IMG/VR virus record: IMGVR_UViG_3300013094_000017
Span: 186,001-250,000 of that record
Origin: a virus
Direction: 5' to 3' (one strand)
DNA: 64,000 nucleotides
This document shows positions 34,482-48,215 of this stretch, piece by piece (position 1 is the stretch's first letter; each line of letters starts with the position of its first letter). Made by a program: the position numbers and the translations under genes. The notes beneath the pieces were generated by a model. It had not been told where the DNA came from, ran no database searches, and was given only the letters and a program-made list of their open reading frames with translations.

Positions 34482-34510
34482 AGTATAATATCAAACCTGC
34501 CAGCTGTCAA
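34482..34510 (-). promoter_or_regulatory. Early promoter P34.5
   Basis: TTGACA, 17 bp, TATACT, followed by the shared leader ACTAACACAACGGAGAAA and the ATG. Confidence 0.85.
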
Positions 34511-34515
34511 CTACT

Positions 34516-34830
34516 TTATGCCAACTCCTTAAGCTCACGCTGTAGCTTCTTCAATTGCTTCTGTAAGTCCTTAAGCTTCACAGCCGCGCTAATATCAATC
34601 GCATGCTTAAACTTCTTATTCTCCCAATCTCTGTCACTAACAATAGCATCCACATACATGTCAACAATAGTCTTTAGTGTAGCGTTCCACTTAGCACCGT
34701 CTAAGCACGTGTCCCAACATTCAATCTCATACTTGTCTGCAATGTAGTCATCAAGCTCACTTAAGCGTTCAATCACTTCTGTTTCAATGTCGTTAGCTAC
34801 ATCGTCAATTGTTTTAATTTTCTTAGCCAT
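34516..34830 (-). CDS. Hypothetical coiled-coil protein
   Basis: 104 aa, acidic N-terminal half (DDVANDIETEVIERLSELDD) and a C-terminal Lys/Leu heptad stretch (AAVKLKDLQKQLKKLQRELK). Early promoter and leader upstream. Function unknown. Confidence 0.65.
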   Translation of the reverse strand: MAKKIKTIDDVANDIETEVIERLSELDDYIADKYEIECWDTCLDGAKWNATLKTIVDMYVDAIVSDRDWENKKFKHAIDISAAVKLKDLQKQLKKLQRELKELA

Positions 34831-34861
34831 TTTGTTTACCTCGTTGCGTTAGTGTCTGTGT

Positions 34862-34890
34862 AGTATACTATCGATTAAACCCTAAGTCAA
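34862..34890 (-). promoter_or_regulatory. Early promoter P34.9
   Basis: TTGACT, 17 bp, TATACT, then the shared leader (here ACTAACGCAACGAGG). Confidence 0.82.
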
Positions 34891-34891
34891 C

Positions 34892-35086
34892 CTATTTCTT
34901 TACTCGAACAGTGAATAGACTGCCTAGTAGGGCTGTGGCTAACCAAGTGTTGAATGTGTAGGGAATAGCCAATGCGGGGAATAAAGTATCCAATGACCAT
35001 ATGGTTAAGATAGGTCCTAGAATGACTGCTAAGATACCTAATACTACTAGGCCTAGTACGCCAAAGGCTTTGGTGGATGATTTCAT
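34892..35086 (-). CDS. Small membrane protein
   Basis: 64 aa with two hydrophobic helices (GVLGLVVLGILAVILGPIL and a C-terminal one) joined by a short loop. TAATG overlap with the 50-aa gene upstream, so translationally coupled. Possibly acts on the host membrane; unknown. Confidence 0.6.
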   Translation of the reverse strand: MKSSTKAFGVLGLVVLGILAVILGPILTIWSLDTLFPALAIPYTFNTWLATALLGSLFTVRVKK

Positions 35087-35238
35087 TAGTTTAGATCCTT
35101 ATGATAGAATTGGTCCATTTGGTATAGGCTCACACAGGTTAGTACGAGGATACCTAATAGTCCCAATGTTGAGGGTGTGTTAACTTCATATGCTATAAGA
35201 GCAAGTAGCAAGGCCTTGCTGGTATATATCTTAATCAT
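35086..35238 (-). CDS. Small membrane protein, 50 aa
   Basis: MIKIYTSKALLLALIAYEVN, then a second hydrophobic segment (TLGLLGILVLTCVSLY). Leader with GGAG and an early promoter 34 bp upstream of the start; coupled to the next gene through TAATG. Confidence 0.6.
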   Translation of the reverse strand: MIKIYTSKALLLALIAYEVNTPSTLGLLGILVLTCVSLYQMDQFYHKDLN

Positions 35239-35271
35239 TTAATTTCTCCTAGTGTTGTAATGCATGAGTGC

Positions 35272-35300
35272 ATTATATAGTCTAAGCGGCCTTATGTCAA
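35272..35300 (-). promoter_or_regulatory. Early promoter P35.3
   Basis: TTGACA, 17 bp, TATAAT. The TGA inside the -35 is the stop codon of the 29-aa gene upstream. Confidence 0.83.
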
Positions 35301-35386
35301 CTTCGGATGGCACGGATGCCTAGGGTGAGGATGAGGCCAAACACTAGGATCACTGCTATAGGTATTAGGGCTACTAGGTTGTACAT
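35297..35386 (-). CDS. Single-helix membrane peptide, 29 aa
   Basis: MYNLVALIPIAVILVFGLIL followed by a short basic end. GGAG before the ATG and TAATG coupling to the gene upstream. Its stop is the TGA of the next promoter's -35. Confidence 0.55.
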   Translation of the reverse strand: MYNLVALIPIAVILVFGLILTLGIRAIRS

Positions 35387-35649
35387 TATAATACTCCTTC
35401 TGATTCTAGTTCAGCTACTGCTTCGTTGAATAGGCTTTCTAGGTCGCGGACTTGGTTGGCCACTCTAATGTCTTTCCGACGCTTACGGAGTGCTGTGCCT
35501 TTCTGATACATTAAAGGGTGATGCAGTTTACAGTATACTGCACCATCCACTAGGTCCTTTGATCCACACTCGGTTGGATTATCGCCAAGCCATTGACATC
35601 CGAGTGCTCTAACCAGGGCTAGATCAAGTACCGGATTATTTGTTTTCAT
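35386..35649 (-). CDS. Putative zinc-binding protein, 87 aa
   Basis: GCQWLGDNPTECGSKDLVDG then YCKLHHPLMYQKG gives a C-x8-C...C-x2-HH arrangement. The rest is basic then acidic helix (RKRRKDIRVANQVRDLESLF). I recall this as a CxW-type zinc motif of small phage proteins. Overlaps the next gene upstream by 14 bp. Confidence 0.6.
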   Translation of the reverse strand: MKTNNPVLDLALVRALGCQWLGDNPTECGSKDLVDGAVYCKLHHPLMYQKGTALRKRRKDIRVANQVRDLESLFNEAVAELESEGVL

Positions 35650-35872
35650 TGTTAACCATCTTCTTTACTAGTTTTTCAGTATCGATGCCCATATCTTTTA
35701 ATATGATCAGCATGACTGTTGATGTTTCTACTCGGCCGGCAGTGCGTTCCTGGTGTGCAATGATCACCAAGAGGGCAATCAAACTCCACCACTGCCAACC
35801 CCAACCTAAGTTGAGGGTGGCCAGTACTAGACCGTAGGTTAGATATAATGCTACGTTTAATATCTTATCCAT
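35636..35872 (-). CDS. Membrane protein, 78 aa
   Basis: Two hydrophobic helices (ILNVALYLTYGLVLATLNLG; WWSLIALLVIIAH) and a polar C-terminus. Overlaps the AAA+ gene stop by one base, same operon. Confidence 0.58.
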   Translation of the reverse strand: MDKILNVALYLTYGLVLATLNLGWGWQWWSLIALLVIIAHQERTAGRVETSTVMLIILKDMGIDTEKLVKKMVNNENK

Positions 35873-36732
35873 TAGGCACGACGCATACAGGTTGTTGAAG
35901 CCATAGCCTGCCAGTTGCTGGGAAAGCTCTTGCGCAGGTCAGCTACCTTAAGTACCATGCGTAGGCTTAGCTCTCTGAGCTTGGCCGCGTTCACAGTGAT
36001 GAAGTTAACGATCTCATCTTTGGTCACCTGTTCAAACTCATAGTCATCTAACATACCTTCATTAACAATCTGCTTGATGCGCAGGATCTTCTCGCGGTCT
36101 GTGTCCATCTCTAAGTCGATGTAATGGCAACGACTTTCGAGCGCATCTAAGTGGTCCTTCAATCGTTTGCTTTTCACATGATGGAATTTAATATTAGTGA
36201 TAAAGATCGCCGCACCTTTGAACTCAAACCTGTCTGGAATGCCTTCACTGCGTAGCATACGGCTGTCAGTGTTCCAAGCAATGTATCGCTTCTTGCTACT
36301 ATCTAATGCGCCCTTGAGGATGTTAAGGCTAAGGTCTTCCATAAGAATACTGTCGCAGTCATCGAACACTATAACGTTGCCTTCGTCTGCGAATTCGTAT
36401 AACTTAGCATATAGTCCGAGGCTACTCATCGCACCTTTGACCACTTCGTATTTAGGTTTCTTATTACCTAACGTGTTGAATAGATCGTCCTTGCTGAGTA
36501 CTGCCTCAACACCAAAGCTCTTACCTACACCTGGGGGACCACTTACGATCATAGCACGTACATCGCCATGCTTGACTGCTTTGGTCATGTCAGTTAAGAT
36601 ACTGAAGCGAGCACTTAGGCGTTCAATGATCTCTTCGTCAGTCTCTAAAGCCACTGATAGTTCTAAGGCCTTAATCGCATCGGTATCAAACTCTAGTACT
36701 GATACGCCACCACTCTTATTTGCTTTTGCCAT
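35872..36732 (-). CDS. AAA+ ATPase
   Basis: 286 aa. Walker A SGPPGVGKS near residues 64-72, Walker B VIVFDDCDSIL near 119, sensor-1 type AAIFITNIKF near 175, arginine-rich region ALESRCHYIDLEMD. The C-terminal lid has LRELSLRMVLKVADLRKS. Similar small AAA+ ATPases occur in many phages, of unknown substrate; roles in remodelling replication or transcription complexes are possible. Own early promoter. Confidence 0.88.
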   Translation of the reverse strand: MAKANKSGGVSVLEFDTDAIKALELSVALETDEEIIERLSARFSILTDMTKAVKHGDVRAMIVSGPPGVGKSFGVEAVLSKDDLFNTLGNKKPKYEVVKGAMSSLGLYAKLYEFADEGNVIVFDDCDSILMEDLSLNILKGALDSSKKRYIAWNTDSRMLRSEGIPDRFEFKGAAIFITNIKFHHVKSKRLKDHLDALESRCHYIDLEMDTDREKILRIKQIVNEGMLDDYEFEQVTKDEIVNFITVNAAKLRELSLRMVLKVADLRKSFPSNWQAMASTTCMRRA

Positions 36733-36764
36733 TTGCTTTCCTTGTTTTGTTAGTGTAAGTGTGT

Positions 36765-36793
36765 ATTATAACACCTAGCCTAGGCCTTGTCAA
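36765..36793 (-). promoter_or_regulatory. Early promoter P36.8
   Basis: TTGACA, 17 bp containing CCTAGG, TATAAT. Located inside the 3' end of the 44-aa gene upstream. Confidence 0.84.
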
Positions 36794-36914
36794 CCACTTC
36801 TTTTTCAACAGTGGCGCCTGTATACTTCTGGCCTGCCTTGTGAATCAATCCCCAAGGATAGTATGTAATAGTTCCGCCCGAAGCAGAAGTTTTTGTAGTG
36901 CCTGGTGTGTTCAT
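36780..36914 (-). CDS. Small protein, 44 aa
   Basis: Thr/Gly-rich start then GTITYYPWGLIHKAGQKYTG and a charged end. GGAG before the ATG, which follows the previous stop by one base. Its last codons contain the next promoter. Unknown. Confidence 0.5.
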   Translation of the reverse strand: MNTPGTTKTSASGGTITYYPWGLIHKAGQKYTGATVEKEVVDKA

Positions 36915-36915
36915 G

Positions 36916-37005
36916 TTATACTCCGAATACCAATTTGCCTAATAAGAACCCTGCAAAAAACAGGGCCACCCAACCTACTAAACGATCTCCCCAGTTAGGC
37001 TCCAT
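36916..37005 (-). CDS. Single-helix membrane peptide, 29 aa
   Basis: MEPNWGDRLVGWVALFFAGF then LLGKLVFGV: one transmembrane helix. Starts inside the end of the 68-aa gene and ends one base before the next ATG. Confidence 0.55.
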   Translation of the reverse strand: MEPNWGDRLVGWVALFFAGFLLGKLVFGV

Positions 37006-37201
37006 AGTATTCTGCTCCTTCATCATACTCGTCGGCAGTGTCTTCGTCTTCTTCAAAGAAGCCTTCCAACTCAGTAGCGCAGAAGTCCTCGACAGCCGCT
37101 TCGCTCATTGTGGTCATTAAGCTGGTTGCCAACCACATTGGGTCAACGATGCCTTCTACCATTAGATCATAAAGCCTGTTAGTGTATTTGCGTGTTGCCA
37201 T
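36995..37201 (-). CDS. Acidic hypothetical protein, 68 aa
   Basis: Helical N-terminus (NRLYDLMVEGIVDPMWLATS) and an acidic tail (EEDEDTADEYDEGAE). Early promoter and full leader upstream. Confidence 0.62.
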   Translation of the reverse strand: MATRKYTNRLYDLMVEGIVDPMWLATSLMTTMSEAAVEDFCATELEGFFEEDEDTADEYDEGAEYYGA

Positions 37202-37231
37202 TTTGTTTCTCCGTTGTGTTAGTGTAAGTGC

Positions 37232-37260
37232 ATTATAGCAGGAGTTAGCCCAAATGTCAA
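37232..37260 (-). promoter_or_regulatory. Early promoter P37.2
   Basis: TTGACA, 17 bp, TATAAT, leader CACTTACACTAACACAACGG then GAGAAACAAA. Confidence 0.87.
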
Positions 37261-37261
37261 C

Positions 37262-37417
37262 CTATGTTCTTGCTATGATAGCCTGTGAGTAGATGATAGA
37301 TCCCAGAACCTCTGCGGAGGAGGTCACTCCACCTTGTAGCTCCCAACCATTGGCCAAGGCTGCACGTATTTCCTTTTCAACCTCTGCTAAGGTACCTGTG
37401 ACAATCTTGTATCGCAT
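37262..37417 (-). CDS. DUF1737-like protein, 51 aa
   Basis: MRYKIVTGTLAEVEKEIRAA, then NGWELQGGV and a terminal IIYSQAIIAR: the pattern of the small DUF1737 fold (YKLVTG...GWEL-G...QA). Role unknown. One base after the TraR-like gene. Confidence 0.7.
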   Translation of the reverse strand: MRYKIVTGTLAEVEKEIRAALANGWELQGGVTSSAEVLGSIIYSQAIIART

Positions 37418-37418
37418 A

Positions 37419-37676
37419 TTAACCTTTCTCTGCTAGTTCCTGACACCAGACGCATCGTGTGCAGCCTAGGATGGCCTGTCTGCGAGGTTCCGGAATGGCC
37501 TCACCACAGTCCTCACACTCGGTTAGACTTGGTTGTGCCGCTTGCTCTGCTAGTCGACGCTGAACATCAGCTACCGCGTTCATGTTTAGGTGGATGGCGT
37601 GAATCTGGCCTAACTCTTCTTCGGCTCTGTTATCCATGAAGTTATCTTCTTGGTGCAATACATCTTTAGTTGTCAT
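37419..37676 (-). CDS. DksA/TraR-like C4 zinc-finger protein
   Basis: 85 aa. The C-terminal half CEDCGEAIPEPRRQAILGCTRC plus CQELAEKG is the C4 zinc finger of the DksA/TraR family (C-x2-C-x17-C-x2-C). The helical N-terminal arm (RAEEELGQIHAIHLNMNAVA) is short, as in TraR and phage homologues. Such proteins bind the RNA polymerase secondary channel and can mimic DksA plus ppGpp. Here it could retune host transcription early in infection. Middle gene of a three-gene unit. Confidence 0.85.
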   Translation of the reverse strand: MTTKDVLHQEDNFMDNRAEEELGQIHAIHLNMNAVADVQRRLAEQAAQPSLTECEDCGEAIPEPRRQAILGCTRCVWCQELAEKG

Positions 37677-37788
37677 TAGATTTGCCTTTGTGTTTGGTCT
37701 TGCGGGTGAACTTGGTACGGTCCTTCTCTACCTTTGCTTTGAAAGGAAGATCCTTGTTGAATAGTGCATAGTGTCTGCGTACTGTCAT
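37666..37788 (-). CDS. Small basic protein, 40 aa
   Basis: MTVRRHYALFNKDLPFKAKV then many Lys/Arg. First gene of the unit with the TraR-like and DUF1737-like genes; overlaps the former by 11 bp. Possibly nucleic-acid binding; unknown. Confidence 0.55.
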   Translation of the reverse strand: MTVRRHYALFNKDLPFKAKVEKDRTKFTRKTKHKGKSNDN

Positions 37789-37821
37789 TTTAATCTTTCT
37801 GCTCGTTTTCATAGTGTAAGT

Positions 37822-37850
37822 ATTATACTACCTTAAACCTCTGATGTCAA
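37822..37850 (-). promoter_or_regulatory. Early promoter P37.8
   Basis: TTGACA, 17 bp, TATAAT, then ACTTACACTATGAAAACGAG, a variant leader. Confidence 0.84.
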
Positions 37851-37859
37851 CCCCTAAAT

Positions 37860-37980
37860 GAGGTCAAGAGAAAGCCCGCAACATGCAGGCTTTTTCTTAG
37901 GTCTAGCTATATGTTAGGTTTAGTAACTTTACATACCATGCCCTTTCTTCAAAATTGATTTAAGTGTTATCTCTTACTAA
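37860..37980 (-). ncRNA. Candidate small RNA between orphan promoter and hairpin
   Basis: A consensus promoter (37986-38014) has no gene of useful size before a strong hairpin (AAGCC-GC/GC-GGCTT, 37871-37895) about 110 nt downstream. The only ORF is 10 codons. A transcript of about 110-120 nt is predicted. Confidence 0.4.
37871..37895. terminator. Hairpin, possible bidirectional terminator
   Basis: AAAGCC-x-GC stem around AACAT with a T-run on the plus side and a weaker TTTCTCTT run on the minus side. Confidence 0.5.
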
Positions 37981-37985
37981 ACTAC

Positions 37986-38014
37986 ATTATACTATCTTAA
38001 ACGAATCCTGTCAA
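37986..38014 (-). promoter_or_regulatory. Early promoter P38.0 (orphan)
   Basis: TTGACA, 17 bp, TATAAT, lying partly in the 3' end of the gene at 37997. No ORF with a start codon follows within 190 bp. Confidence 0.78.
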
Positions 38015-38440
38015 TGCTCGTTGGTATCGTTCCTCTTGGTGTCGTGCCCAACTCATCTCTAGGCCATGCTGTATACGCTCCCTATCAAACCATTCAGCTA
38101 GGGCAGGAAACTCGATTAACGGTAGTTCTATACCATAGTCATCTTCGAACCAATCTGTTCTGATCTTCCAGGTCTCTGGTACCAAGTTTCGATGCACACC
38201 GATGTTGGTTTCGATCATTAATCGTTTCCATTTGCGAACCAATGTGTTTATGGTATTGGTCCAATAGGTATTGGCCCATGTGTTTGGTTGTGTCCTGGAC
38301 AATGCTTCTCGAGCTTGGTCTAATCGAATGCCCAAGGCATCCAACTCATACTCAGTGGGGAATAGGTTCTTAGGTTCCCAATCGCCTAGATCTAAGGGCA
38401 ATACCACTGCCTCTGGCTCTTTAGGTTTAAACCAACGCAT
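37997..38440 (-). CDS. Hypothetical protein, 147 aa
   Basis: Trp-rich helical protein (YELDALGIRLDQAREALSRT; NTYWTNTINTLVRKWKRLMI; LEMSWARHQEERYQRALTGF). No domain recognised. Overlaps the 94-aa gene upstream by 14 bp. Confidence 0.6.
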   Translation of the reverse strand: MRWFKPKEPEAVVLPLDLGDWEPKNLFPTEYELDALGIRLDQAREALSRTQPNTWANTYWTNTINTLVRKWKRLMIETNIGVHRNLVPETWKIRTDWFEDDYGIELPLIEFPALAEWFDRERIQHGLEMSWARHQEERYQRALTGFV

Positions 38441-38711
38441 CTTCTAACTCCTCGGGAATGTCATTTAGGACCTTGCGCTTCTTAGTCTCTGCTATCAAGC
38501 AGGCCTGCACTTCTGCATTGCCGTTGGCAAAGCCTATGGCGAATAGGAATGCCAGTGCATCCTCTTTGGTGCTGGGATACTTAAGTTCCACTAGGTCGAT
38601 GTCCTTGTGTCCGCATTTGATTAGGATCTTTACTCGGTGATAACTGTTGGCATATCGAACTTTGAGTTTACCGTCGAGTCTACTAACGCCTGCGTGTGTG
38701 TATGATTTCAT
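38427..38711 (-). CDS. Hypothetical protein, 94 aa
   Basis: Alpha/beta: GKLKVRYANSYHRVKILIKC, then DLVELKYPSTKEDALAFLFA and an acidic C-terminus. First gene after promoter P38.7. Unknown. Confidence 0.6.
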   Translation of the reverse strand: MKSYTHAGVSRLDGKLKVRYANSYHRVKILIKCGHKDIDLVELKYPSTKEDALAFLFAIGFANGNAEVQACLIAETKKRKVLNDIPEELEDALV

Positions 38712-38741
38712 AGGTCTTTCCTGTTCTATCAGTGTATAGCT

Positions 38742-38770
38742 AGTATACTACCATTAGCCCAAAATGTCAA
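38742..38770 (-). promoter_or_regulatory. Early promoter P38.7
   Basis: TTGACA, 17 bp, TATACT. The TGA of the -35 is the stop codon of the 57-aa gene. Confidence 0.84.
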
Positions 38771-38940
38771 TAGACTTCTTTGGTGATATAGAATACTTCC
38801 GCGGGATACTTCTCTTTGAACTCATCCGTGCCTGTGAACTTGTTCAGTTCAGTAGCATTGAAGAATACCTTATGCAATGCTGTCTTATGTGTCTTACGAT
38901 CACTGACCGTTAGATAAACTGATGTGGCGCGTCCTGCCAT
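38767..38940 (-). CDS. Small protein, 57 aa
   Basis: MAGRATSVYLTVSDRKTHKT, then VFFNATELNKFTGTDEF and VFYITKEVY. Compact alpha/beta. One base after the 65-aa gene; its stop is shared with the next -35. Confidence 0.6.
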   Translation of the reverse strand: MAGRATSVYLTVSDRKTHKTALHKVFFNATELNKFTGTDEFKEKYPAEVFYITKEVY

Positions 38941-38941
38941 G

Positions 38942-39139
38942 TTAGACCTCTTCTATTGAATGTGGAGGAAAGCTGAACTTCAAACTGTTCCTGCCTGTGT
39001 TGGCTGCCTCTGCACGTTTGAATGCTTCAAGTGCGCCTTCTTTAGTATCTGCTTCTACGACGATGTGATCAGTCTCAGTGTGGTTAAATTCATCCCATCC
39101 CGGCATCTCATATTCGTAGCGTACAATGTATCTTGCCAT
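38942..39139 (-). CDS. Hypothetical protein, 65 aa
   Basis: MARYIVRYEYEMPGWDEFNH then HIVVEADTKEGALEAFKRAE, a small ferredoxin-like beta-alpha-beta pattern. Start at 39139 follows the early leader; the longer frame to 39199 would include the promoter. Confidence 0.65.
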   Translation of the reverse strand: MARYIVRYEYEMPGWDEFNHTETDHIVVEADTKEGALEAFKRAEAANTGRNSLKFSFPPHSIEEV

Positions 39140-39170
39140 TTTGTTTCTCCGTTGCGCTAGTGTATGTGTT

Positions 39171-39199
39171 ATTATAGCATACACTAGCCCAAAAGTCAA
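39171..39199 (-). promoter_or_regulatory. Early promoter P39.2
   Basis: TTGACT, 17 bp, TATAAT, shared leader (ACTAGCGCAACGGAGAAA). Confidence 0.85.
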
Positions 39200-39457
39200 C
39201 TAGTATTGCACCACACGCACAATCTGCGTTAAGTAAGCCCAACGCGGCTCACCTTTAGTGTCTGTGTAGTCACAACCTGCACGTCCATTCTTAATGTCTG
39301 CTTCTACGTTTTCTAACGTAACAGTTTCTGCAGGCTCACTGCCAAACCCACTGCGTATAACTACCACGCTACCTGCACGTACATCATCAATGTCAACGCC
39401 AGTGCCAGCAATGCCACTGCGTCTAATTGCGCTAATTAAATCTAATGTGTTGCTCAT
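39200..39457 (-). CDS. Hypothetical protein, 85 aa
   Basis: MSNTLDLISAIRRSGIAGTG, then beta-rich VRAGSVVVIRSGFGSEPAET and RWAYLTQIVRVV; SH3-like small beta protein. Start set by the early leader. Confidence 0.62.
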   Translation of the reverse strand: MSNTLDLISAIRRSGIAGTGVDIDDVRAGSVVVIRSGFGSEPAETVTLENVEADIKNGRAGCDYTDTKGEPRWAYLTQIVRVVQY

Positions 39458-39487
39458 TTTGTTTCTCCGTTTTGTTAGTGTAAGTGC

Positions 39488-39516
39488 ATTATAGCGCATT
39501 TCTGCGCTATTGTCAA
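39488..39516 (-). promoter_or_regulatory. Early promoter P39.5 with dyad spacer
   Basis: TTGACA, 17 bp, TATAAT. The spacer and -10 form a perfect dyad ATAGCGCA-GAAA-TGCGCTAT. Confidence 0.86.
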
Positions 39517-39519
39517 CCA

Positions 39520-39729
39520 TTATTTTTCTTGCATTACAATGTTGTTAGTGCGTAATTGTTCTGCAGCCTGCGCAAATGCACGCACAACATCTTCTTCGTT
39601 GTTATAATCGCTACTAATAAAGCTAGCGTTACGTTGTGTTAGCGTGTCGTATGTAAAGCCTACAATAAGTCTAAACAGACCCTTGTTTGTTTTTAATACT
39701 TTTGCGTGTGCTAGTGTGTTTGTTTGCAT
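39520..39729 (-). CDS. Hypothetical protein, 69 aa
   Basis: MQTNTLAHAKVLKTNKGLFR, LIVGFTYDTLTQRNASFI, then DVVRAFAQAAEQLRTNN: beta-alpha small protein. Early leader ends at its ATG. Confidence 0.62.
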   Translation of the reverse strand: MQTNTLAHAKVLKTNKGLFRLIVGFTYDTLTQRNASFISSDYNNEEDVVRAFAQAAEQLRTNNIVMQEK

Positions 39730-39760
39730 TTGTGTTGCTCCGTTTTGTTAGTGTAAGTGC

Positions 39761-39789
39761 ATTATAGCACCCACACTAACATTTGTCAA
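39761..39789 (-). promoter_or_regulatory. Early promoter P39.8
   Basis: TTGACA, 17 bp, TATAAT, shared leader. Confidence 0.86.
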
Positions 39790-39794
39790 CCTCT

Positions 39795-40064
39795 TTATGC
39801 CTGTACGCAGGTACCTCTGACCATGTGAAGGCTTCTGCGCCCAGTGCGTGTGCTGGCAGTTAACCCATGTGCATTTAACAATGCTTCCGTCCTTCCTGCT
39901 ACCTTCTCGCCTAGCCCGTGATATACCACCATGCCCACATAGCGTTTACTTTCCCAGGTGCGGTGGTTTGCGCTGTCAGTCCATGCCATGCCTAGCTCTG
40001 CGCCCAATTGTTTGGCCGCGGTTCTTACTGCATTACGGAATTCTAATGTGTTTGCTGTTTGCAT
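39795..40064 (-). CDS. Hypothetical protein, 89 aa
   Basis: MQTANTLEFRNAVRTAAKQL, then AWTDSANHRTWESKRYVGMV and TEALLNAHGLTASTRTGRR. Start at 40064 follows GGAGAAACAA; an upstream ATG at 40076 lies in the leader. Confidence 0.6.
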   Translation of the reverse strand: MQTANTLEFRNAVRTAAKQLGAELGMAWTDSANHRTWESKRYVGMVVYHGLGEKVAGRTEALLNAHGLTASTRTGRRSLHMVRGTCVQA

Positions 40065-40093
40065 TTGTTTCTCCATTTGTTTAGTGTAAGTGT

Positions 40094-40122
40094 ATTATAA
40101 CACAGGTATTACCAAAAGTCAA
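40094..40122 (-). promoter_or_regulatory. Early promoter P40.1
   Basis: TTGACT, spacer containing GGTAATACC, TATAAT. Confidence 0.85.
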
Positions 40123-40377
40123 CTATCTTTTGGGCCATATGGCGTCTAGAGTCTCTACCTTCTGGCGATTCATTTCCTGGGTGATCTGTTCGTCCTTACC
40201 ATATACTCGTTCGCGGTACATGCGTTCGAAGCAACGACCCAGACCTTCTGCACTCTTATTACCCCAGGAGGTTTCGTAGCGACCATCGTCATTGGTCTTT
40301 AGATCTAACATCTGGGCTATCTCTAGCCCAAATGCTTCTGCTTCTGCGGATGTAGAAAATTTACTTACGATCATCAC
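40123..40377 (-). CDS. Hypothetical protein, 84 aa
   Basis: MMIVSKFSTSAEAEAFGLEI and a helical remainder with RCFERMYRERVYGKDEQIT. Five bp after the 107-aa gene, same transcript. Unknown. Confidence 0.58.
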   Translation of the reverse strand: MMIVSKFSTSAEAEAFGLEIAQMLDLKTNDDGRYETSWGNKSAEGLGRCFERMYRERVYGKDEQITQEMNRQKVETLDAIWPKR

Positions 40378-40382
40378 TGCTC

Positions 40383-40706: not shown

Positions 40707-40736
40707 TTTGTTGCTCCGTTGTGTTAGTGTAAGTGC

Positions 40737-40765
40737 ATTATAGCATAGGTATTACCTGTTGTCAA
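40737..40765 (-). promoter_or_regulatory. Early promoter P40.7
   Basis: TTGACA, spacer with AGGTAATACCT, TATAAT, shared leader. Confidence 0.86.
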
Positions 40766-40784
40766 CCCCTATCTTATGCCAAGA

Positions 40785-40822
40785 GAAAGGGCTGTGAACA
40801 ACATTATGTCCACAGCCCTTAT
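40785..40822 (-). terminator. Probable terminator after gene 40879
   Basis: A 10-bp stem AAGGGCTGTG/CACAGCCCTT followed on the minus strand by TTCTCTT. A second hairpin GGCTTAC/GTAAGCC lies beside it at about 40832-40846. Confidence 0.6.
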
Positions 40823-40878
40823 GATAGGGTGGGCTTACCGTAAGCCACTACCTCACAAACCACACCCCACGGAGCAAC

Positions 40879-41319
40879 CTATGCAAAGTCTTTGTTATAT
40901 TGATTACGCTTTGCCTCACACTTGTCTTTAAACTCTGCCCAAGTGCCTGAAAAAATTACGTTGTCGTTGTTAGTGCCAACAGTGACAACCTCAACCTTGT
41001 TCTTGTAAACATGGTACTCATATTCCTGCCAATTGTCCACACCTGGCTTAGGTGGATACAAGTAGAACTGCCCTGGACCATCTTTAAAGTGTGCTACCAA
41101 CTGCGCGGCCAAACATCCCATACCATTGGCAACCTTTTCTGTCTTAGCACCCAAACCATTTACAATTGCAATTGGGCTAAGGAATTCAGCAAGCTCTAAA
41201 CCATGTCCTTCCATGTAGCCATCATATTGGCGATATAACTTAATGATTGGCGTGTGCTTCTCTTTGCCATTCTTTTGAGTGTAAGTGTCATAAACCCATG
41301 TTAAACTGCGTGTACCCAT
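40879..41319 (-). CDS. Conserved phage protein, 146 aa
   Basis: Opens MGTRSLTWVYDTYTQKNGKE, TPIIKLYRQYDGYMEGHGLE, a start I recall from widespread phage and bacterial hypothetical proteins. Then beta-rich EYEYHVYKNKVEVVTVGTNN and FSGTWAEFKDKC. Enzymatic role not evident. Confidence 0.72.
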   Translation of the reverse strand: MGTRSLTWVYDTYTQKNGKEKHTPIIKLYRQYDGYMEGHGLELAEFLSPIAIVNGLGAKTEKVANGMGCLAAQLVAHFKDGPGQFYLYPPKPGVDNWQEYEYHVYKNKVEVVTVGTNNDNVIFSGTWAEFKDKCEAKRNQYNKDFA

Positions 41320-41349
41320 TTTGCTTCTCCGTGTTGTTAGTGTAAGTGC

Positions 41350-41378
41350 ATTATAGCACCCCCTAGGGGTTTTGTCAA
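41350..41378 (-). promoter_or_regulatory. Early promoter P41.4
   Basis: TTGACA, spacer with palindrome CCCCTAGGGG, TATAAT. Confidence 0.86.
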
Positions 41379-41400
41379 CCCCTTTAAGCGGGGTCTTACT

Positions 41401-41835
41401 CTAGGAGTCTTGTTCTTCTTCCTCGTACTCAGGTTCATCGTACGGTGGGTCAGTGTCAATAACAACCTTACCGAATGTAAGCTCAGCACCATCACTGCCT
41501 ACTGCAAACTGCTCTTCGAAGTCTACTACGTTGCCACCTTCCATCCATAGGCTGTCCGAAGTATCGTTGATGTCACTAAGTAGGATACACCCAATGCCAC
41601 CTGCATCCACAGGATACTCACGGCCTTGCTCATCCTCATAGTTACCATCACCGTGGGCGGTACTGAAGTAAGCAAAGCGAACACCATTGGCTAATTTGAA
41701 TACACCTTGTGCACCGCGCCAGTTGTCTTGTCCCTTAGGAAAGAACAGCTCACACGCTTCTTGCCACTGTGGGTGCATTACATAGCACAAGTCACCGATC
41801 CAATACTTTCCTGCTGGCATAGTTCCGTAATTCAT
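41401..41835 (-). CDS. Conserved hypothetical protein, 144 aa
   Basis: MNYGTMPAGKYWIGDLCYVM, FAYFSTAHGDGNYEDEQGRE, VDAGGIGCILLSDI: the pattern of a DUF4241-like or jacalin-free beta protein seen in many phages and bacteria ('G-YWIGD-CYV'). Acidic C-terminus. Function unknown. Confidence 0.68.
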   Translation of the reverse strand: MNYGTMPAGKYWIGDLCYVMHPQWQEACELFFPKGQDNWRGAQGVFKLANGVRFAYFSTAHGDGNYEDEQGREYPVDAGGIGCILLSDINDTSDSLWMEGGNVVDFEEQFAVGSDGAELTFGKVVIDTDPPYDEPEYEEEEQDS

Positions 41836-41865
41836 TTTGTTTCTCCGTTGTGTTAGTGTAAGTAC

Positions 41866-41894
41866 ATTATAACATCGGTATTACCACTTGTCAA
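41866..41894 (-). promoter_or_regulatory. Early promoter P41.9
   Basis: TTGACA, spacer with GGTAATACC, TATAAT, shared leader. Confidence 0.86.
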
Positions 41895-41897
41895 CCC

Positions 41898-42113
41898 CTA
41901 GATAGCATCAGCCTCTTCAACGTTATACTGCGTGATGTCGTCCTCAAGGATCTCAATAGCCGTCACACGCACTTCGTTATCAGTGGTCATACCGCCGAGG
42001 ACATTCTTGTAGTCCAAGAGTTCTTGTGCATACTCAAGAGCCTGGTCTCGGTTATCGAACGGTTCGTCGTGTGTGATCTCAGCACGCACTGTGGTGTAGA
42101 TGACTGTCTTCAT
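41898..42113 (-). CDS. Hypothetical protein, 71 aa
   Basis: MKTVIYTTVRAEITHDEPFD, then helical QALEYAQELLDYKNVLGG and EVRVTAIEILEDDITQYN. ATGA overlap with the gene upstream. Confidence 0.6.
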   Translation of the reverse strand: MKTVIYTTVRAEITHDEPFDNRDQALEYAQELLDYKNVLGGMTTDNEVRVTAIEILEDDITQYNVEEADAI

Positions 42114-42316
42114 TCTGCTGTCTCCATTGACATCTCTTGCAAGCGGTCATACGCATTAACAAAGTCCTCGCAAAGCAGACGCATACGATGCATAGCCTGC
42201 TCTTCGCTGTCGCTTAGGCCAATGTCTTCAAAGTCGTAACCGTCTTCTAGAACATTAACGCAATCGCGCAAATCACCTAAGGTGTTTTCGAACCTGCAAT
42301 AACTCATATTAGCCAT
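42110..42316 (-). CDS. Widespread small phage protein, 68 aa
   Basis: MANMSYCRFENTLGDLRDCV is a start I recall from many small phage proteins; the rest is an acidic helix with a Met-rich end. Early leader upstream. Function unknown. Confidence 0.68.
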   Translation of the reverse strand: MANMSYCRFENTLGDLRDCVNVLEDGYDFEDIGLSDSEEQAMHRMRLLCEDFVNAYDRLQEMSMETAE

Positions 42317-42346
42317 TTTGTTTCTCCGTTGTGTTAGTGTAAGTGC

Positions 42347-42375
42347 ATTATAGCAGGTAAAACCTGCTATGTCAA
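42347..42375 (-). promoter_or_regulatory. Early promoter P42.4 with dyad spacer
   Basis: TTGACA, 17 bp, TATAAT; dyad ATAGCAGGT-TT-ACCTGCTAT spans spacer and -10. Confidence 0.87.
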
Positions 42376-42378
42376 CCC

Positions 42379-42579
42379 CTAATTAGCAAACTCTTCTATG
42401 CAATCTAATACTTCTTCTAACTGCATAATAACATCTTCGATGTTGTTGTGGATAGTGTAGCAGACATCCTCGTCTTCAGGAAGTGCATCTTTGTAGACTG
42501 CAAATGCTTTCTGTTGCAAGCGGTTTGCAGTGTGAAGTGCTTCGATAGCGGCTTCTAGGTGTTGTTTGGCTAGTGACAT
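42379..42579 (-). CDS. Hypothetical helical protein, 66 aa
   Basis: All helical (QHLEAAIEALHTANRLQQKA; NNIEDVIMQLEEVLDCIEEF), acidic. Early leader upstream. Confidence 0.62.
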   Translation of the reverse strand: MSLAKQHLEAAIEALHTANRLQQKAFAVYKDALPEDEDVCYTIHNNIEDVIMQLEEVLDCIEEFAN

Positions 42580-42609
42580 AATGTTTCTCCGTTGTGTTAG
42601 TGTAAAGCT

Positions 42610-42638
42610 ATTATAGCACCAATGGTAAAACCTGTCAA
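42610..42638 (-). promoter_or_regulatory. Early promoter P42.6
   Basis: TTGACA, spacer with GGTTTTACC, TATAAT. The TGA in the -35 is the stop of the membrane protein upstream. Confidence 0.86.
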
Positions 42639-42856
42639 CCGATATAGTGAACTATTAATCCAACTACGCCTGTGAGCAGCATCACACCGTTCACAACGAT
42701 TAAGCTGGCCTTGCGCCATTCTATAGCTATAGCAAACCATATAGCACCGCCTACGCACAGCAACAGGGGCCCTTGTGGGTAGTATCCTAAGCTGTTAACT
42801 GCTGTGCCAACGATTAAGATCGTTGTAGCTATCCATTCTAATATTAAGATTCTCAT
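42635..42856 (-). CDS. Membrane protein, 73 aa
   Basis: Start at 42856 (ATGA overlap with the SleB gene). MRILILEWIATTILIVGTAV and two further hydrophobic stretches, PLLLCVGGAIWFAIAI and ASLIVVNGVMLLTGVVGLIV. Its partnership with a wall hydrolase suggests a lysis accessory role such as a holin, which is inference. Confidence 0.55.
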   Translation of the reverse strand: MRILILEWIATTILIVGTAVNSLGYYPQGPLLLCVGGAIWFAIAIEWRKASLIVVNGVMLLTGVVGLIVHYIG

Positions 42857-43398
42857 ATGTCTAAAGTACTTCCTAATCCTTTGTGATAGAACAAATGTTG
42901 TCCCACCTTGGTTATATACTGCGTACGGTCTGCCCAAGCCGGCGATACATATGATGCATGATACATTAAAGCCTGCTGTAGGGGTCTTACACGTACCTTA
43001 TCCACCAGCACGCTATGCGCAATCATTTGACTCTCAGCCCACAACACACCCTTGGGCTTGTCCAACTTCTTCTTAAGTGTCCACGAGAACTGTGCCTTTG
43101 CGTGGACTACCTTGCACACACTGTTACCCCAATGGCCCGTCTTGAGTCTGTTTAAGGTTACCTGTGCAACTGCGTATTTGCCCTGCACCGGCTCCACCCC
43201 AGCTTCGTAGTATACATTCTCTGCTAGACAAGTCAAGTCATTTTTTGTGTAATGGACATTCTCATCTGTCTGCACAAGAAAAGCCTTGATCTCACGGACC
43301 TCATTGTGGACCTCAGTGATCTCACGTTGCTGGAACGACAGCAATGCTACCACTGCCGTTCCAGTTGCCGCTATGAGTAAATTACTCTTCGTCAACAC
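42853..43398 (-). CDS. SleB-type cell wall hydrolase, membrane anchored
   Basis: 181 aa from GTG 43398 (a longer frame reaches 43437). N-terminal membrane anchor LLIAATGTAVVALLSF, a linker, then the Hydrolase_2/SleB core: CLAENVYYEAGVEPVQGKYA, VAQVTLNRLKTGHWGNSVC, QFSWTLKKK, and C-terminal MYHASYVSPAW. These enzymes cleave peptidoglycan glycan strands. The uncleaved anchor suggests a signal-anchor-release type lysis enzyme or membrane-tethered hydrolase. It overlaps the Api92-like gene by 17 bp. Confidence 0.85.
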   Translation of the reverse strand: MLTKSNLLIAATGTAVVALLSFQQREITEVHNEVREIKAFLVQTDENVHYTKNDLTCLAENVYYEAGVEPVQGKYAVAQVTLNRLKTGHWGNSVCKVVHAKAQFSWTLKKKLDKPKGVLWAESQMIAHSVLVDKVRVRPLQQALMYHASYVSPAWADRTQYITKVGQHLFYHKGLGSTLDI

Positions 43399-43954
43399 TG
43401 TCTGCTTCCCACATCTCTTGGTTTTCGGAGATGGCAAAAGTATCGTCTAACTCTTGCGGTAGTTGATCACGAGCGCCTTGTGCATCACCCCAGTCTTGGT
43501 AGTAGTCATCATTGCCGTCTTGATAGATGCCAGCGAACTGCATACCACCTTCATAGTAGTAGCCAAGCACATCAAAGCCCGCTTCTTCCAAGAACGCATA
43601 AGCGCCTACTGGCGGAGCCCAAGCACTGTCAAAGTGCAGGGTGATGCTGTGGAAGCCGTCAATGGTCTCATTGATCTCGTAGTATTCATCCTCACTGCCA
43701 ACATCCCACTTGGTTCCCCAATTGCTCACGCACCAGTCATACCAAGTGCTGTAGCCATATTTCTCAAGGTTGGCTTCATATAGGGCCTGTAGTTCAGCAT
43801 CATCAGTACCTGGAGCACTGGTGATCATCAAAGCCTCGGGCACAGGAGCGAACTCCTGTAGCAATACCCCACGCTTAAAGGCCTCTTCGACACGCTGGAT
43901 CTGACCAGCATCTTTGTGAGTAAGTGTTACGATATTCTGGCACCAGTTTGGAAT
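43382..43954 (-). CDS. Api92-like protein, AUU start
   Basis: 190 aa if read from ATT 43954. The expected N-terminus of this family (PNWCQNIVTLTHKDAGQIQR) is present and in frame, but the position of the initiator ATG is ATT, preceded by AGGAACCCAAA. The first ATG/GTG/TTG alternatives lie more than 50 codons downstream. The body has YDWCVSNWGTKWDVGS and the C-terminal YYYEGGMQFAGIYQDG, the ferredoxin-like Api92/DUF1281 domain common in phages and mobile islands. Function unknown. Early promoter upstream. Confidence 0.8.
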   Translation of the reverse strand: MPNWCQNIVTLTHKDAGQIQRVEEAFKRGVLLQEFAPVPEALMITSAPGTDDAELQALYEANLEKYGYSTWYDWCVSNWGTKWDVGSEDEYYEINETIDGFHSITLHFDSAWAPPVGAYAFLEEAGFDVLGYYYEGGMQFAGIYQDGNDDYYQDWGDAQGARDQLPQELDDTFAISENQEMWEADSVDEE

Positions 43955-43993
43955 TTTGGGTTCCTACCTTTCTTAATTTGTTAGTGTAAGTGC

Positions 43994-44022
43994 ATTATAG
44001 CACCTTTCGGTGCTATGGTCAA
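43994..44022 (-). promoter_or_regulatory. Early promoter P44.0 with dyad spacer
   Basis: TTGACC, 17 bp, TATAAT; dyad ATAGCACC-GAAA-GGTGCTAT spans spacer and -10. Confidence 0.84.
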
Positions 44023-44277
44023 CTAGCATTCGTAAAGTTTAACTCCAGGATCTAACTGCTTCAACTCATTCGCCGCCTGTGTTAGAAACTTAAAATTCCT
44101 ACGAACAGTGGCCGCATCTAGCTCGCCATCACAGGTCAAGTTCTCTGGTGATAGTTTGCCATCGATGATATCTGCAATGTGTTGTCGGTCTTGGGCAGTG
44201 GCCAACGACAGAGGTTTATTCCCCCATATGGCACGCCATTGGTTTTCTGCTTGGATAAAGGACTTTAGTGTTTTCAT
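44023..44277 (-). CDS. Hypothetical protein, 84 aa
   Basis: Helical: MKTLKSFIQAENQWRAIWGN, TAQDRQHIADIIDGKLSPEN, VRRNFKFLTQAANELKQ. Early leader upstream; the -35 of the next promoter follows its stop directly. Confidence 0.62.
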   Translation of the reverse strand: MKTLKSFIQAENQWRAIWGNKPLSLATAQDRQHIADIIDGKLSPENLTCDGELDAATVRRNFKFLTQAANELKQLDPGVKLYEC

Positions 44278-44307
44278 TACGTTTCTCCGTGTTGTTAGTG
44301 TAAGTGC

Positions 44308-44336
44308 ATTATAGCACCTACACTAATCTCTGTCAA
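44308..44336 (-). promoter_or_regulatory. Early promoter P44.3
   Basis: TTGACA, 17 bp, TATAAT, shared leader. Confidence 0.86.
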
Positions 44337-44343
44337 CCTCTAT

Positions 44344-44616
44344 CTAGGCCATCTCTACCATGTTAGCAGGCACACGCCAAGCACCTTGTGGTGTATCGAT
44401 AACGATGTTCTTAATAGCGATCTTCTTAACGGTGCCTCGAATGGTTTGACGGCTACGGCTTGAAGTAAACTGGACAGCGTCACCTACACGGAATGTTCTT
44501 AGGTTCAATCGAGCGTTACGGCTTCGGACATACTTGATTGACTCTACGATTGAGTTGATATCCGCATCAGTCAATTCTGAAGTTAGGATTAGTTCATTGA
44601 TTTTGGCTACTGACAT
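44344..44616 (-). CDS. Small SH3/KOW-like protein, 90 aa
   Basis: N-terminal helices (NELILTSELTDADINSIVES), then FRVGDAVQFTSSRSRQTIRG, TVKKIAIKNIVIDTPQGAWR: a KOW/SH3-type beta barrel pattern (VGD-V-F...G-V-K). Such domains bind RNA or ribosomal and transcription factors; no target known. Confidence 0.65.
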   Translation of the reverse strand: MSVAKINELILTSELTDADINSIVESIKYVRSRNARLNLRTFRVGDAVQFTSSRSRQTIRGTVKKIAIKNIVIDTPQGAWRVPANMVEMA

Positions 44617-44644
44617 AGTCTGCTCCTTAAGTGTTTAAGTGTGT

Positions 44645-44673
44645 AGTATAACATCGGTATTACCAAATGTCAA
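44645..44673 (-). promoter_or_regulatory. Early promoter P44.6
   Basis: TTGACA, spacer with GGTAATACC, TATACT. TGA of the -35 is the stop of the gene at 44670. Leader diverges (CTTAAACACTTAAGGAGC). Confidence 0.84.
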
Positions 44674-44951
44674 CCTAAAAAGAATTCAATCTCTTTAATA
44701 AGATCTTCCTTCACTGGCTTGTCTTCGTCGCCATGCACATACGCGGCGAACTCCTCTTCATGCCAGCGTTCAAATGTGCTAGTCATTAGCCAATTGAATA
44801 TCTTTTCTGCTGACTCCTGCTTAACCTTAGCGCGGAACGCTTCCAATGCCTTAGCACTGTCGCCTTCTGTCCAGTAGGTAAGTCCGTCTTGCTCAACTAG
44901 CAGGCCTGCTTCGATTGCTAGTTGTTCTGTTGCGGAAAAGGTTGTGCTCAT
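44670..44951 (-). CDS. Hypothetical protein, 93 aa
   Basis: Helical, acidic (SAKALEAFRAKVKQESAEKI; FERWHEEEFAAYVHGDEDKP). ATGA overlap with the 43-aa gene upstream. Confidence 0.6.
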   Translation of the reverse strand: MSTTFSATEQLAIEAGLLVEQDGLTYWTEGDSAKALEAFRAKVKQESAEKIFNWLMTSTFERWHEEEFAAYVHGDEDKPVKEDLIKEIEFFLG

Positions 44952-45079
44952 GCCATTACTCCTTGTTTAACCTTGCGCCAATCCCAACGTGCCTGTGTGT
45001 ATGCACGACGGCTAAGTGTAAAGCCTGGGCAGTTCTTGCAGGCCCAAGCTACGAAGTGAACTTGCTCTACGTTACTCAT
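44948..45079 (-). CDS. Small protein, 43 aa
   Basis: MSNVEQVHFVAWACKNCPGF then basic, Trp-containing RRAYTQARWDWRKVKQG. CKNC could be half of a zinc site. ATGA couplings to both neighbours. Confidence 0.58.
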   Translation of the reverse strand: MSNVEQVHFVAWACKNCPGFTLSRRAYTQARWDWRKVKQGVMA

Positions 45080-45231
45080 AAGCCACAAGCCTCGTAGAAG
45101 CGTCCATAGTCAAAGCGACTGTTCATTGCCTTAGCAACATCTGCAAAAGCCTTAGCCGCTTGCTTGCGTGCATCCAAGTCTGCGATACCTGCTAGTTCTT
45201 TTGCCATTGCAATAAAGTGTTTACGTGACAT
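45076..45231 (-). CDS. Small helical protein, 51 aa
   Basis: MSRKHFIAMAKELAGIADLD, ARKQAAKAFADVAKAMNSRF, then FYEACGL. I recall similar 50-60 aa proteins from phage and plasmid genomes. GGAGAAACACAAG leader ends at its ATG. Confidence 0.62.
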   Translation of the reverse strand: MSRKHFIAMAKELAGIADLDARKQAAKAFADVAKAMNSRFDYGRFYEACGL

Positions 45232-45263
45232 CTTGTGTTTCTCCGTTTTGTTAGTGTGTAGCT

Positions 45264-45292
45264 ATTATAACACCGGTTTTACCTTTAGTCAA
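45264..45292 (-). promoter_or_regulatory. Early promoter P45.3
   Basis: TTGACT, spacer with GGTAAAACC, TATAAT. The next gene's stop overlaps the -35. Confidence 0.85.
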
Positions 45293-45530
45293 CCTCAATT
45301 AACTTTAATTCGTAGAACATATCCTGCGCCAAGTCTACGCTGACAAAGTCAATAGCATACTCTTCGCCACTCTCTTCACCTGTACCGTAGAAGCGACCTG
45401 TACTGAGATCCTCTCCCAGATCTAATAAGTCCTGGTCAGTATCCCAATAGTCAATGCGGATGCCCTCGCAATTGAATGGAACATACACTGCGGCACGGCC
45501 TACGATCTCTTTAACCTTATCTAAGCTCAT
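45285..45530 (-). CDS. Acidic hypothetical protein, 81 aa
   Basis: MSLDKVKEIVGRAAVYVPFN, RIDYWDTDQDLLDLGEDLST, EEYAIDFVSVDLAQDMFY. ATGA overlap with the 128-aa gene upstream. Confidence 0.6.
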   Translation of the reverse strand: MSLDKVKEIVGRAAVYVPFNCEGIRIDYWDTDQDLLDLGEDLSTGRFYGTGEESGEEYAIDFVSVDLAQDMFYELKLIEVD

Positions 45531-45913
45531 ACCTTCTCCTTTGCAACAATCTTAGGTTCACGTCCACTGCCATCGCTGATGTAGCCTAACACTAAGGTCT
45601 CCATAGCCCGCTTAGCCTCTTGCACGGCTTCCCAAGCAAGGTCTTCTGCGGTGCCGTCTTTGAATACTTCCATGGCATCCTCGTACAAGAAGCCACCTAC
45701 ATAAGCATCACCTAGCTCGATGTCCTTGTAGTAGGCCACAGCGCGAAGCATGAACCAATCTAATTCATACGCATCAATCTTGCGACAAAGGTCTTCAACG
45801 TCTGTTACAGTGTCATCAAAGCAGTCTCTGGGGCTAATATCTTCCCAGGACTTTTCGATCTTAACAGTAAAGCCATCCATTTCAAGCTGGCCTAGTGTTT
45901 CCCAATGGCGCAT
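45527..45913 (-). CDS. Acidic hypothetical protein, 128 aa
   Basis: MRHWETLGQLEMDGFTVKIE, ISPRDCFDDTVTDVEDLCRK, FMLRAVAYYKDIELGDAYVG: the pattern of a small alpha/beta family I recall in phages, unannotated. Early leader (GGAGAATG) upstream. Confidence 0.62.
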   Translation of the reverse strand: MRHWETLGQLEMDGFTVKIEKSWEDISPRDCFDDTVTDVEDLCRKIDAYELDWFMLRAVAYYKDIELGDAYVGGFLYEDAMEVFKDGTAEDLAWEAVQEAKRAMETLVLGYISDGSGREPKIVAKEKV

Positions 45914-45942
45914 ATCATTCTCCGTTTGTTTAGTTTAAGTGC

Positions 45943-45971
45943 ATTATAGCACAGGTATTACCAAAGGTCAA
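45943..45971 (-). promoter_or_regulatory. Early promoter P45.9
   Basis: TTGACC, spacer with GGTAATACC, TATAAT. TGA of the -35 is the stop of the gene at 45968. Confidence 0.84.
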
Positions 45972-46129
45972 TCCCAAAATTTATTAATAATCTCTTCTGC
46001 TTCCCTCATAGCACCATCAAAGTCACCAGCACCTAAGCAGAAGATCTCTCCGCTGTAGTGTAAGCACCAGCAGTTCAAGTGTAGATCAAATTCTACATCG
46101 TAACCAGTTTCTAATACATGTACAGCCAT
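45968..46129 (-). CDS. Small protein, 53 aa
   Basis: MAVHVLETGYDVEFDLHLNC, WCLHYSGEIFCLGAGDFDGA, MREAEEIINKFWD. AAGGAGAAT before ATG 46129. Small beta-alpha protein with several Cys. Confidence 0.58.
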   Translation of the reverse strand: MAVHVLETGYDVEFDLHLNCWCLHYSGEIFCLGAGDFDGAMREAEEIINKFWD

Positions 46130-46139
46130 AATATTCTCC

Positions 46140-46307
46140 TTATAAACTTGCGGTATCAATTTCTACGTCCGCTAGGACAATAGTAACATCCCACGGCTTC
46201 TTAGCACCTAGTAGGCCTGCTGCGAGTCTTTGTGCGGCAAAGCTAGACTCTGCTTTCACTTCAATCTTCTTGCTCTTGTAGAACGCTATATACATATATG
46301 TTCGCAT
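46140..46307 (-). CDS. Small protein, 55 aa
   Basis: MRTYMYIAFYKSKKIEVKAE, SSFAAQRLAAGLLGAKKPWD, VTIVLADVEIDTA: beta-alpha-beta layout. AAGGAGTAC precedes the ATG. Confidence 0.6.
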   Translation of the reverse strand: MRTYMYIAFYKSKKIEVKAESSFAAQRLAAGLLGAKKPWDVTIVLADVEIDTASL

Positions 46308-46336
46308 AGTGTACTCCTTGTTGTTAGTGTGTAAAC

Positions 46337-46365
46337 ATTATAGCGTAGGTTTTTCCATTTGTCAA
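46337..46365 (-). promoter_or_regulatory. Early promoter P46.3 (minus)
   Basis: TTGACA, 17 bp, TATAAT. Diverges from the plus-strand copy at 46389; the pair marks the switch of gene direction. Confidence 0.85.
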
Positions 46366-46388
46366 GCATTATATTGGTAATATTTTGG

Positions 46389-46417
46389 TTGACAGGTATT
46401 ACCAGCGATGCTATACT
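46389..46417 (+). promoter_or_regulatory. Early promoter P46.4 (plus)
   Basis: TTGACA, spacer with GGTATTACC, TATACT, then ACACTAACAACACGGAGAAC. The only clear plus-strand copy of the full promoter-leader element. Confidence 0.87.
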
Positions 46418-48125: not shown

Positions 48126-48186
48126 ATCATTTCCTTAAGGTTATGCAGCGGGGTCACTACATATATAGTGTTATACTATAAGATAC

Positions 48187-48215
48187 ATTATACACTATAT
48201 ACACTAGTAAGTCAA
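48187..48215 (-). promoter_or_regulatory. Promoter of omega-like gene
   Basis: TTGACT, 17 bp, TATAAT, 62 bp before the ATG. The leader contains one GTAGTGACCCCGCTGC box. Confidence 0.78.

Follow-up and report, generated by a model that had tools for sequence, protein, structure and literature searches.

A putative array of composite promoter-leader modules, some overlapped by hairpins, in the genome of an uncultured jumbo phage

The window analyzed here is a 64,000-nucleotide stretch (positions 186001-250000) of the 259,419-bp IMG/VR virus record IMGVR_UViG_3300013094_000017. Proteins encoded in the record include a terminase, a replicative helicase and the sheath protein of a contractile tail. 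The terminase was 55% identical to those of the Pseudomonas jumbo phages PA5oct, MIJ3 and Paride, the nearest cultured relatives by this protein. Judged from sequence, the phage is a member of a jumbo-phage lineage related to PA5oct/Paride and distant from the T4-type phages. The subject of this report is a cluster of closely similar promoters, with their leaders and genes, at window positions 34482-46417. No match for the cluster was found among cultured phages by megablast.

All 24 promoters of the cluster fit TTGACN-N17-TATA(A/C)T; 23 are read from the minus strand, and the remaining one (46389) diverges from them on the plus strand. The first-pass annotation of this DNA had described about two dozen near-identical promoters with an invariant 17-bp spacer, and this description held. 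When spacings of 12-23 were scanned with the array hexamers, 24 sites were found at 17 (23 minus, 1 plus), one at 16 and none at any other; the sole 16-bp pair, at 43236, is intragenic. Across the whole record TTGACN-N17-TATANT had 53 matches and the reversed pattern 0. An extended -10 (TGN) was common, with T in 21/24 and G in 18/24. By simple gene calls, one gene followed in 10 of the 23 minus-strand promoters, two in 9 and three in 3, in agreement with the earlier statement that many single genes have a private promoter. The promoter sequences suggest use by the host RNA polymerase with host sigma70, and the promoter type would make the array genes early. A cell wall hydrolase/endolysin-like gene (42853-43437, minus strand; PF07486, phrog_938) also lies within the supposedly early block.

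The promoters are fused to the ends of the preceding genes. In 17/23 window promoters the upstream stop codon lay from 18 nt inside to 7 nt before TTGACA, and at four (45971, 44673, 42638 and 38770) it was the TGA of the -35 box itself. From stop codon to start codon, a unit typically measured approximately 60 bp. These fused stop codons were missed in the first-pass annotation, as were the hairpins of the -35/spacer region and a spacer element, GGTAA(A/T)ACC, both described below.

A shared leader followed the promoters in graded form. Its core TACACTAACA was exact in 13/24 and had at most two substitutions in 20/24. In the whole record the leader 20-mer GCACTTACACTAACACAACG had 3 exact matches and 9 within 3 mismatches, every one in the cluster, compared to 0 for the control. 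The sequence GGAGAAACAAAATG occurred six times on the minus strand and not on the plus strand. The earlier claim that most promoters are followed by the leader is thus sound for the core and overstated for the full 20-mer. The leader was missing from sigma70-like promoters read elsewhere in this genome and is therefore not a general intergenic feature. Transcription probably starts at the A of ACACTAAC, the A after GCACTT, and the transcribed leader would begin ACACUAAC. GCACTT, the first six bases of the leader as first quoted, is probably a discriminator rather than part of the 5' untranslated region (UTR), because sigma70 geometry places the start after it. BoxA-like antitermination was considered for GCACTTACAC, from its likeness to lambda boxA, and was dropped as the same geometry puts GCACTT before +1. 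The leader folded more weakly than its own shuffles (-0.61 compared to -1.81, z +3.9, folding window centred at +50), which is consistent with a ribosome-binding region kept open by selection. The selection on the 5' UTR that was first proposed may act in this form, with GCACTT probably outside the UTR. A gene within the regulon (37419-37676, minus strand) encodes a small protein that has a C4 zinc finger of the DksA/TraR type (PF01258, E 4e-10). Promoter discriminators are the site of action of DksA-like proteins, and a link between this gene and the conserved discriminator of the array promoters is possible.

The -35/spacer region was enriched in hairpins. Perfect stems of at least 7 bp, counted from -15 to the end of the -10 box, were present in 6/24 window promoters compared to 0.3 in shuffles in which the promoter hexamers were kept (maximum 2 in 100 sets). 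Three of the window hairpins have unlike sequences in the same place: TAGCAGGT-TTT-ACCTGCTA, ATAGCACC-GAAA-GGTGCTAT and ATAGCGCA-GAAA-TGCGCTAT. Among 128 distinct promoters from related contigs such stems were found in 14, compared to 2.1 after shuffling (maximum 6). The mean folding energy of these relatives was -7.70 compared to -5.75 (sd 0.19), approximately ten null standard deviations below the shuffles. In the folding profile the excess was centred on the -35/spacer region and reversed to a deficit in the leader. Outside the window, two promoters of the same genome have the -35 box as the loop of a GC hairpin with a U-run following in the spacer (G000:38839-38867, AATAGGGC-TTGACA-GGCCCTATTTTTTT; G000:46432-46460). 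Further cases of this terminator form, hairpin plus U-run, are held by the relatives, and candidate terminators with the -35 in the loop were seen in Stenotrophomonas phage RAS14. Two window promoters without a spacer hairpin have strong separate hairpins just upstream (40787-40820 and 37871-37894). At one junction the pairing was kept despite changed bases, as judged by eye (L041:4897 compared to L042:206). N4-type hairpin promoters were rejected as a model, as the stem position varies while the -35 and -10 stay fixed. Spacers pairing with the -35 box itself, such as TTGACAGGGCACAAGCCCTGTCATATAAT, were noted in G006, the contig of L054 (e.g., 7304, 8247 and 21939).

The spacers of the cluster also carry a short repeated element. 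GGTNNNACC was present in 9/24 window spacers compared to 0.03 expected, its GGTnnnACC forming a 9-bp inverted repeat. Among 190 distinct spacers from loci found by leader and not by motif, GGTWWWACC occurred 54 times. A collection scan found the element in at least 118 IMG/VR stretches; a half-swapped control gave 28 and the opposite orientation 42. The spacer was 17 bp in 157 of 170 distinct element-bearing promoters. This spread of a near-invariant 9-mer points to a regulator common to many environmental phages. In bacterial genomes (257 Gb) there were 112 scattered matches of the promoter-spaced 9-mer and no clear host signal. Within the window the element was confined to the 46.4-40.1 kb half (9/13 compared to 0/11; Fisher p 0.0006, with the split chosen after looking). 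Presence of the element was more closely tied to the upstream gene (27 pairs compared to 10.2) than to the downstream gene (25 compared to 15.4). GGTAA(A/T)ACC is here called an operator-like element.

Relatives of the cluster were identified by a scan for the promoter-leader junction, which gave 21 IMG/VR loci with the same kind of regulon; L044, a near-identical contig (99.94% over 30 kb), was too close to inform the analysis of shuffling. Between promoters from different phages with homologous neighbors, both genes were shared in 21 pairs, the upstream gene only in 119 and the downstream gene only in 193, counts that describe a pattern and not probabilities as the pairs are not mutually independent. 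The single-gene blocks of L041 recur in L042 in another order, and the alignment blocks meet at the promoter-leader. Where the upstream gene alone was shared, identity was raised as far as the spacer and was lost ahead of the ATG. Where the downstream gene alone was shared, the leader showed raised identity, with values close to background farther upstream. Because identity declines through the module with distance from the gene that was kept, crossovers appear to fall within the module. A role of the module as a recombination joint for swapping single genes between phages is largely supported by these patterns. Recombinational spread of a promoter-UTR cassette had been proposed in the first-pass annotation; neighbor sharing and the crossover positions largely support it, with the modification that the cassette would act as a joint.

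The cluster is probably an array of composite intergenic modules of the promoter-early stem-loop (PeSL) type, a subset with an overlapping hairpin, in which the modules serve as recombination joints and the spacer element adds a further layer. Each unit of approximately 60 bp would combine a stop codon, a host-sigma70 promoter with an extended -10, an A/C-rich unstructured leader, a GGAG ribosome site and a start codon. In the subset, the -35/spacer region would also fold into a hairpin in RNA transcribed from the preceding unit, so that one stretch of bases would terminate or trim the incoming transcript and launch the following one. The likeness of the modules would let them double as recombination joints where phages swap single genes, which could explain how small host-takeover genes are exchanged rapidly and one at a time. 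As a third layer, the GGTAA(A/T)ACC found in approximately 30% of spacers would act as an operator, most likely by binding a protein that competes with RNA polymerase. The modules, hairpin excess, unstructured leader, gene shuffling and junction positions can all be read as patterns in the DNA; the window spacer hairpins may act as terminators in vivo. Several observations weigh against this account. The window spacer hairpins are without a clean U-run and none was picked up by the terminator scan. A strong hairpin is missing from most window promoters. The comparison of G-U with A-C changes, as a sign of RNA-level pairing, gave 6 and 2 with null values of 1.9 and 1.2, the right direction in too few cases. 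Alignment ends clustered in modules (233/997 compared to 79.8), a count that is confounded by gene edges and of little weight.

Alternatively, the palindromes of the spacers could act at the DNA level, as operators or cruciforms, and not as RNA hairpins. The inverted repeat in nine window spacers fits such a reading, as does the finding that 65 of 71 occurrences of the four A/T forms of GGTWWWACC were inside promoter spacers. The long stems, however, vary in sequence and position among promoters and would not be read by one protein, and some span the -35 box and are then followed by a U-run. The operator reading therefore probably applies to GGTAA(A/T)ACC without extending to the long stems, and as an explanation of both this alternative is unlikely.

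Plain strong sigma70 promoters related by common descent, that is, recent copies of one promoter-leader cassette in which the hairpins and GGTAA(A/T)ACC are passengers, would explain why the module columns were linked beyond chance (three pairs at 80% or more compared to 0.00 expected). Some module copies therefore share descent. Leaders from one phage also resembled each other more (0.53) than did leaders from different phages, including those that precede homologous downstream genes (0.48, with a background of 0.45), a pattern that supports the recombination idea as well. The mismatch distribution of GGTAAAACC in spacers was not one of decay, as 39 were exact, 8 had one mismatch (5 of them at the central A/T) and 135 had two or more, which argues for a conserved site rather than a decaying copy. 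The 9-mer also shifts register (9, 10 or 11) while the promoter spacing stays at 17, hairpins recur with differing sequences, and the similarity of spacers did not correlate significantly with that of leaders (Mantel r 0.12, p 0.13). Common descent as the whole explanation is thus quite doubtful. An origin of the hairpins and the motif by chance, in spacers that are short and AT-balanced, is scarcely credible, since some single folds are unremarkable (46389, z -1.3) but the set-level tests were beyond all shuffles in the window and relatives alike and already contradict it.

The composite modules proposed above are listed by promoter in Table 1.

Table 1. Promoters of the array and one like promoter outside it, in window coordinates.
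Position	Strand	Features
34482-34510	-	TTGACA-N17-TATACT; leader ACGTATACACTAACACAACGGAGAAACAAA; gene 34101-34451
34862-34890	-	TTGACT-N17-TATACT; stop TAG of upstream gene 1 nt before
35272-35300	-	TTGACA-N17-TATAAT; weaker leader match
36765-36793	-	Promoter of AAA ATPase gene 35872-36732; spacer AGGCCTAGGCTAGGTGT
37212-37260	-	TTGACA-N17-TATAAT; exact leader 20-mer 37212-37231
37822-37850	-	Preceded by separate hairpin/terminator-like sequence 37871-37894
37986-38014	-	Without shared leader
38742-38770	-	Upstream stop is TGA within TTGACA
39171-39199	-	TTGACT directly abutted by upstream stop TAG
39488-39516	-	Spacer and half of -10 form 8-bp hairpin ATAGCGCA-GAAA-TGCGCTAT (39491-39510; z -2.9)
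39761-39789	-	TTGACA-N17-TATAAT; shared leader
40094-40122	-	Spacer holds GGTAATACC 40105-40113
40717-40765	-	GGTAATACC 40748-40756; exact leader 20-mer 40717-40736; separate upstream hairpin 40787-40820
41350-41378	-	-35 box inside 7-bp hairpin AGGGGTT-GACAA-AACCCCT (41365-41383; z -3.5)
41866-41894	-	GGTAATACC 41877-41885
42327-42375	-	9-bp hairpin containing GGTTTTACC (42350-42370; z -2.8); exact leader 20-mer 42327-42346
42610-42638	-	GGTTTTACC 42624-42632; upstream stop is TGA within TTGACA
43994-44022	-	8-bp hairpin ATAGCACC-GAAA-GGTGCTAT overlaps -10 (43997-44016; z -3.4)
44308-44336	-	TTGACA-N17-TATAAT; shared leader
44645-44673	-	GGTAATACC 44656-44664; upstream stop is TGA within TTGACA
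45264-45292	-	GGTAAAACC 45275-45283
45943-45971	-	GGTAATACC 45954-45962; upstream stop is TGA within TTGACC
46337-46365	-	First promoter of minus-strand block; divergent partner of 46389
46389-46417	+	Divergent; spacer GGTATTACC 46395-46403; inverted repeat across -35, 46375-46404 (fold z -1.3)
50520-50548	+	Like promoter beyond the range first annotated; GGTAATACC 50531-50539

A lone tRNA-Met gene (anticodon CAT) adjoins the divergent promoter pair at 46857-46933 (minus strand). The region 48142-48894 is AT-rich with few genes. It holds three copies of a repeat containing GCAGCGGGGTCA, many direct and inverted TATAGTGTATA repeats and a 23-bp tandem GTTCACCTATTTTCTCATACCTT, and is possibly an origin or a regulatory RNA region.

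Repeated short sites overlapping a promoter -35/spacer, like the element here, are known as stoperators or spacer operators (mycobacteriophage L5, tet operator). The box of the Escherichia coli regulator PdhR (GntR/FadR-type) has the consensus (A)ATTGGTnnnACCAAT(T) with a core of GGTnnnACC, and several E. coli PdhR sites are TGGTaaaACC (PMC7660256). The phage element has the same 9-bp core. It differs in that the TGGTnnnACCA palindrome is not completed in the phages (left T 78%, right A 30%). The right flank was T in 43%, A in 30% and G in 25%, and T..A flanks were present in 8/49. The center is also strand-biased in the phages (AAA 39, TTT 8). No GntR-type protein (PF00392) was found in six phage records. 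That GGTAA(A/T)ACC is an operator for a host PdhR/FadR-type metabolic regulator or a new phage regulator, through which a whole lineage of large phages would tie a defined half of the takeover genes to host carbon status or titrate the regulator with many decoy sites, is a speculative and rather improbable proposal.

The early promoters of T4 are host sigma70 promoters serving many small genes, like the array here. The name PeSL for the promoter-early stem-loop units of RB49/phi1 and other T4-like phages reportedly comes from Arbiol et al. 2010 and Comeau et al. 2014. PeSLs mediate gene shuffling between related T4-like phages (PMC4503421). The units described here resemble them in the sigma70-consensus promoter, the 17-bp spacer, the stem-loop in the spacer or across the -35, the shared leader before the start codon, the one or few small genes per unit and the gene shuffling at units. 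In RB49, used as a positive control, stems of at least 7 bp were found in 4/10 promoters compared to 0.22 expected. Hairpins lay within the 17-bp spacer (e.g., GGGGATC-GGT-GATCCCC, flanked by TTGACA and TATAAT), and a shared leader came next. The present units differ in that the DNA is unrelated and from a jumbo phage, the hairpin is in a minority of window promoters and is there without a U-run, and GGTAA(A/T)ACC, not among the listed RB49 promoters, is an extra element. The window units share with PeSLs a strong sigma70-like promoter in an intergenic unit and, as a sequence pattern, shuffling with junctions in the module. A stem-loop within or overlapping the promoter was found for the set and in 6/24, not in every promoter. 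Other traits of the PeSL class are termination of transcription by the stem-loop and the formation of mini-circles when neighboring units recombine. In PA5oct, 11 TTGAC-N17-TATAAT matches were without obvious spacer hairpins or GGTAA(A/T)ACC by eye. The takeover region of this uncultured lineage of jumbo phages, related to PA5oct/Paride, would thus also be organized by promoter-terminator composite units like those known from T4-type coliphages, and the design would be either ancient or easily re-evolved.

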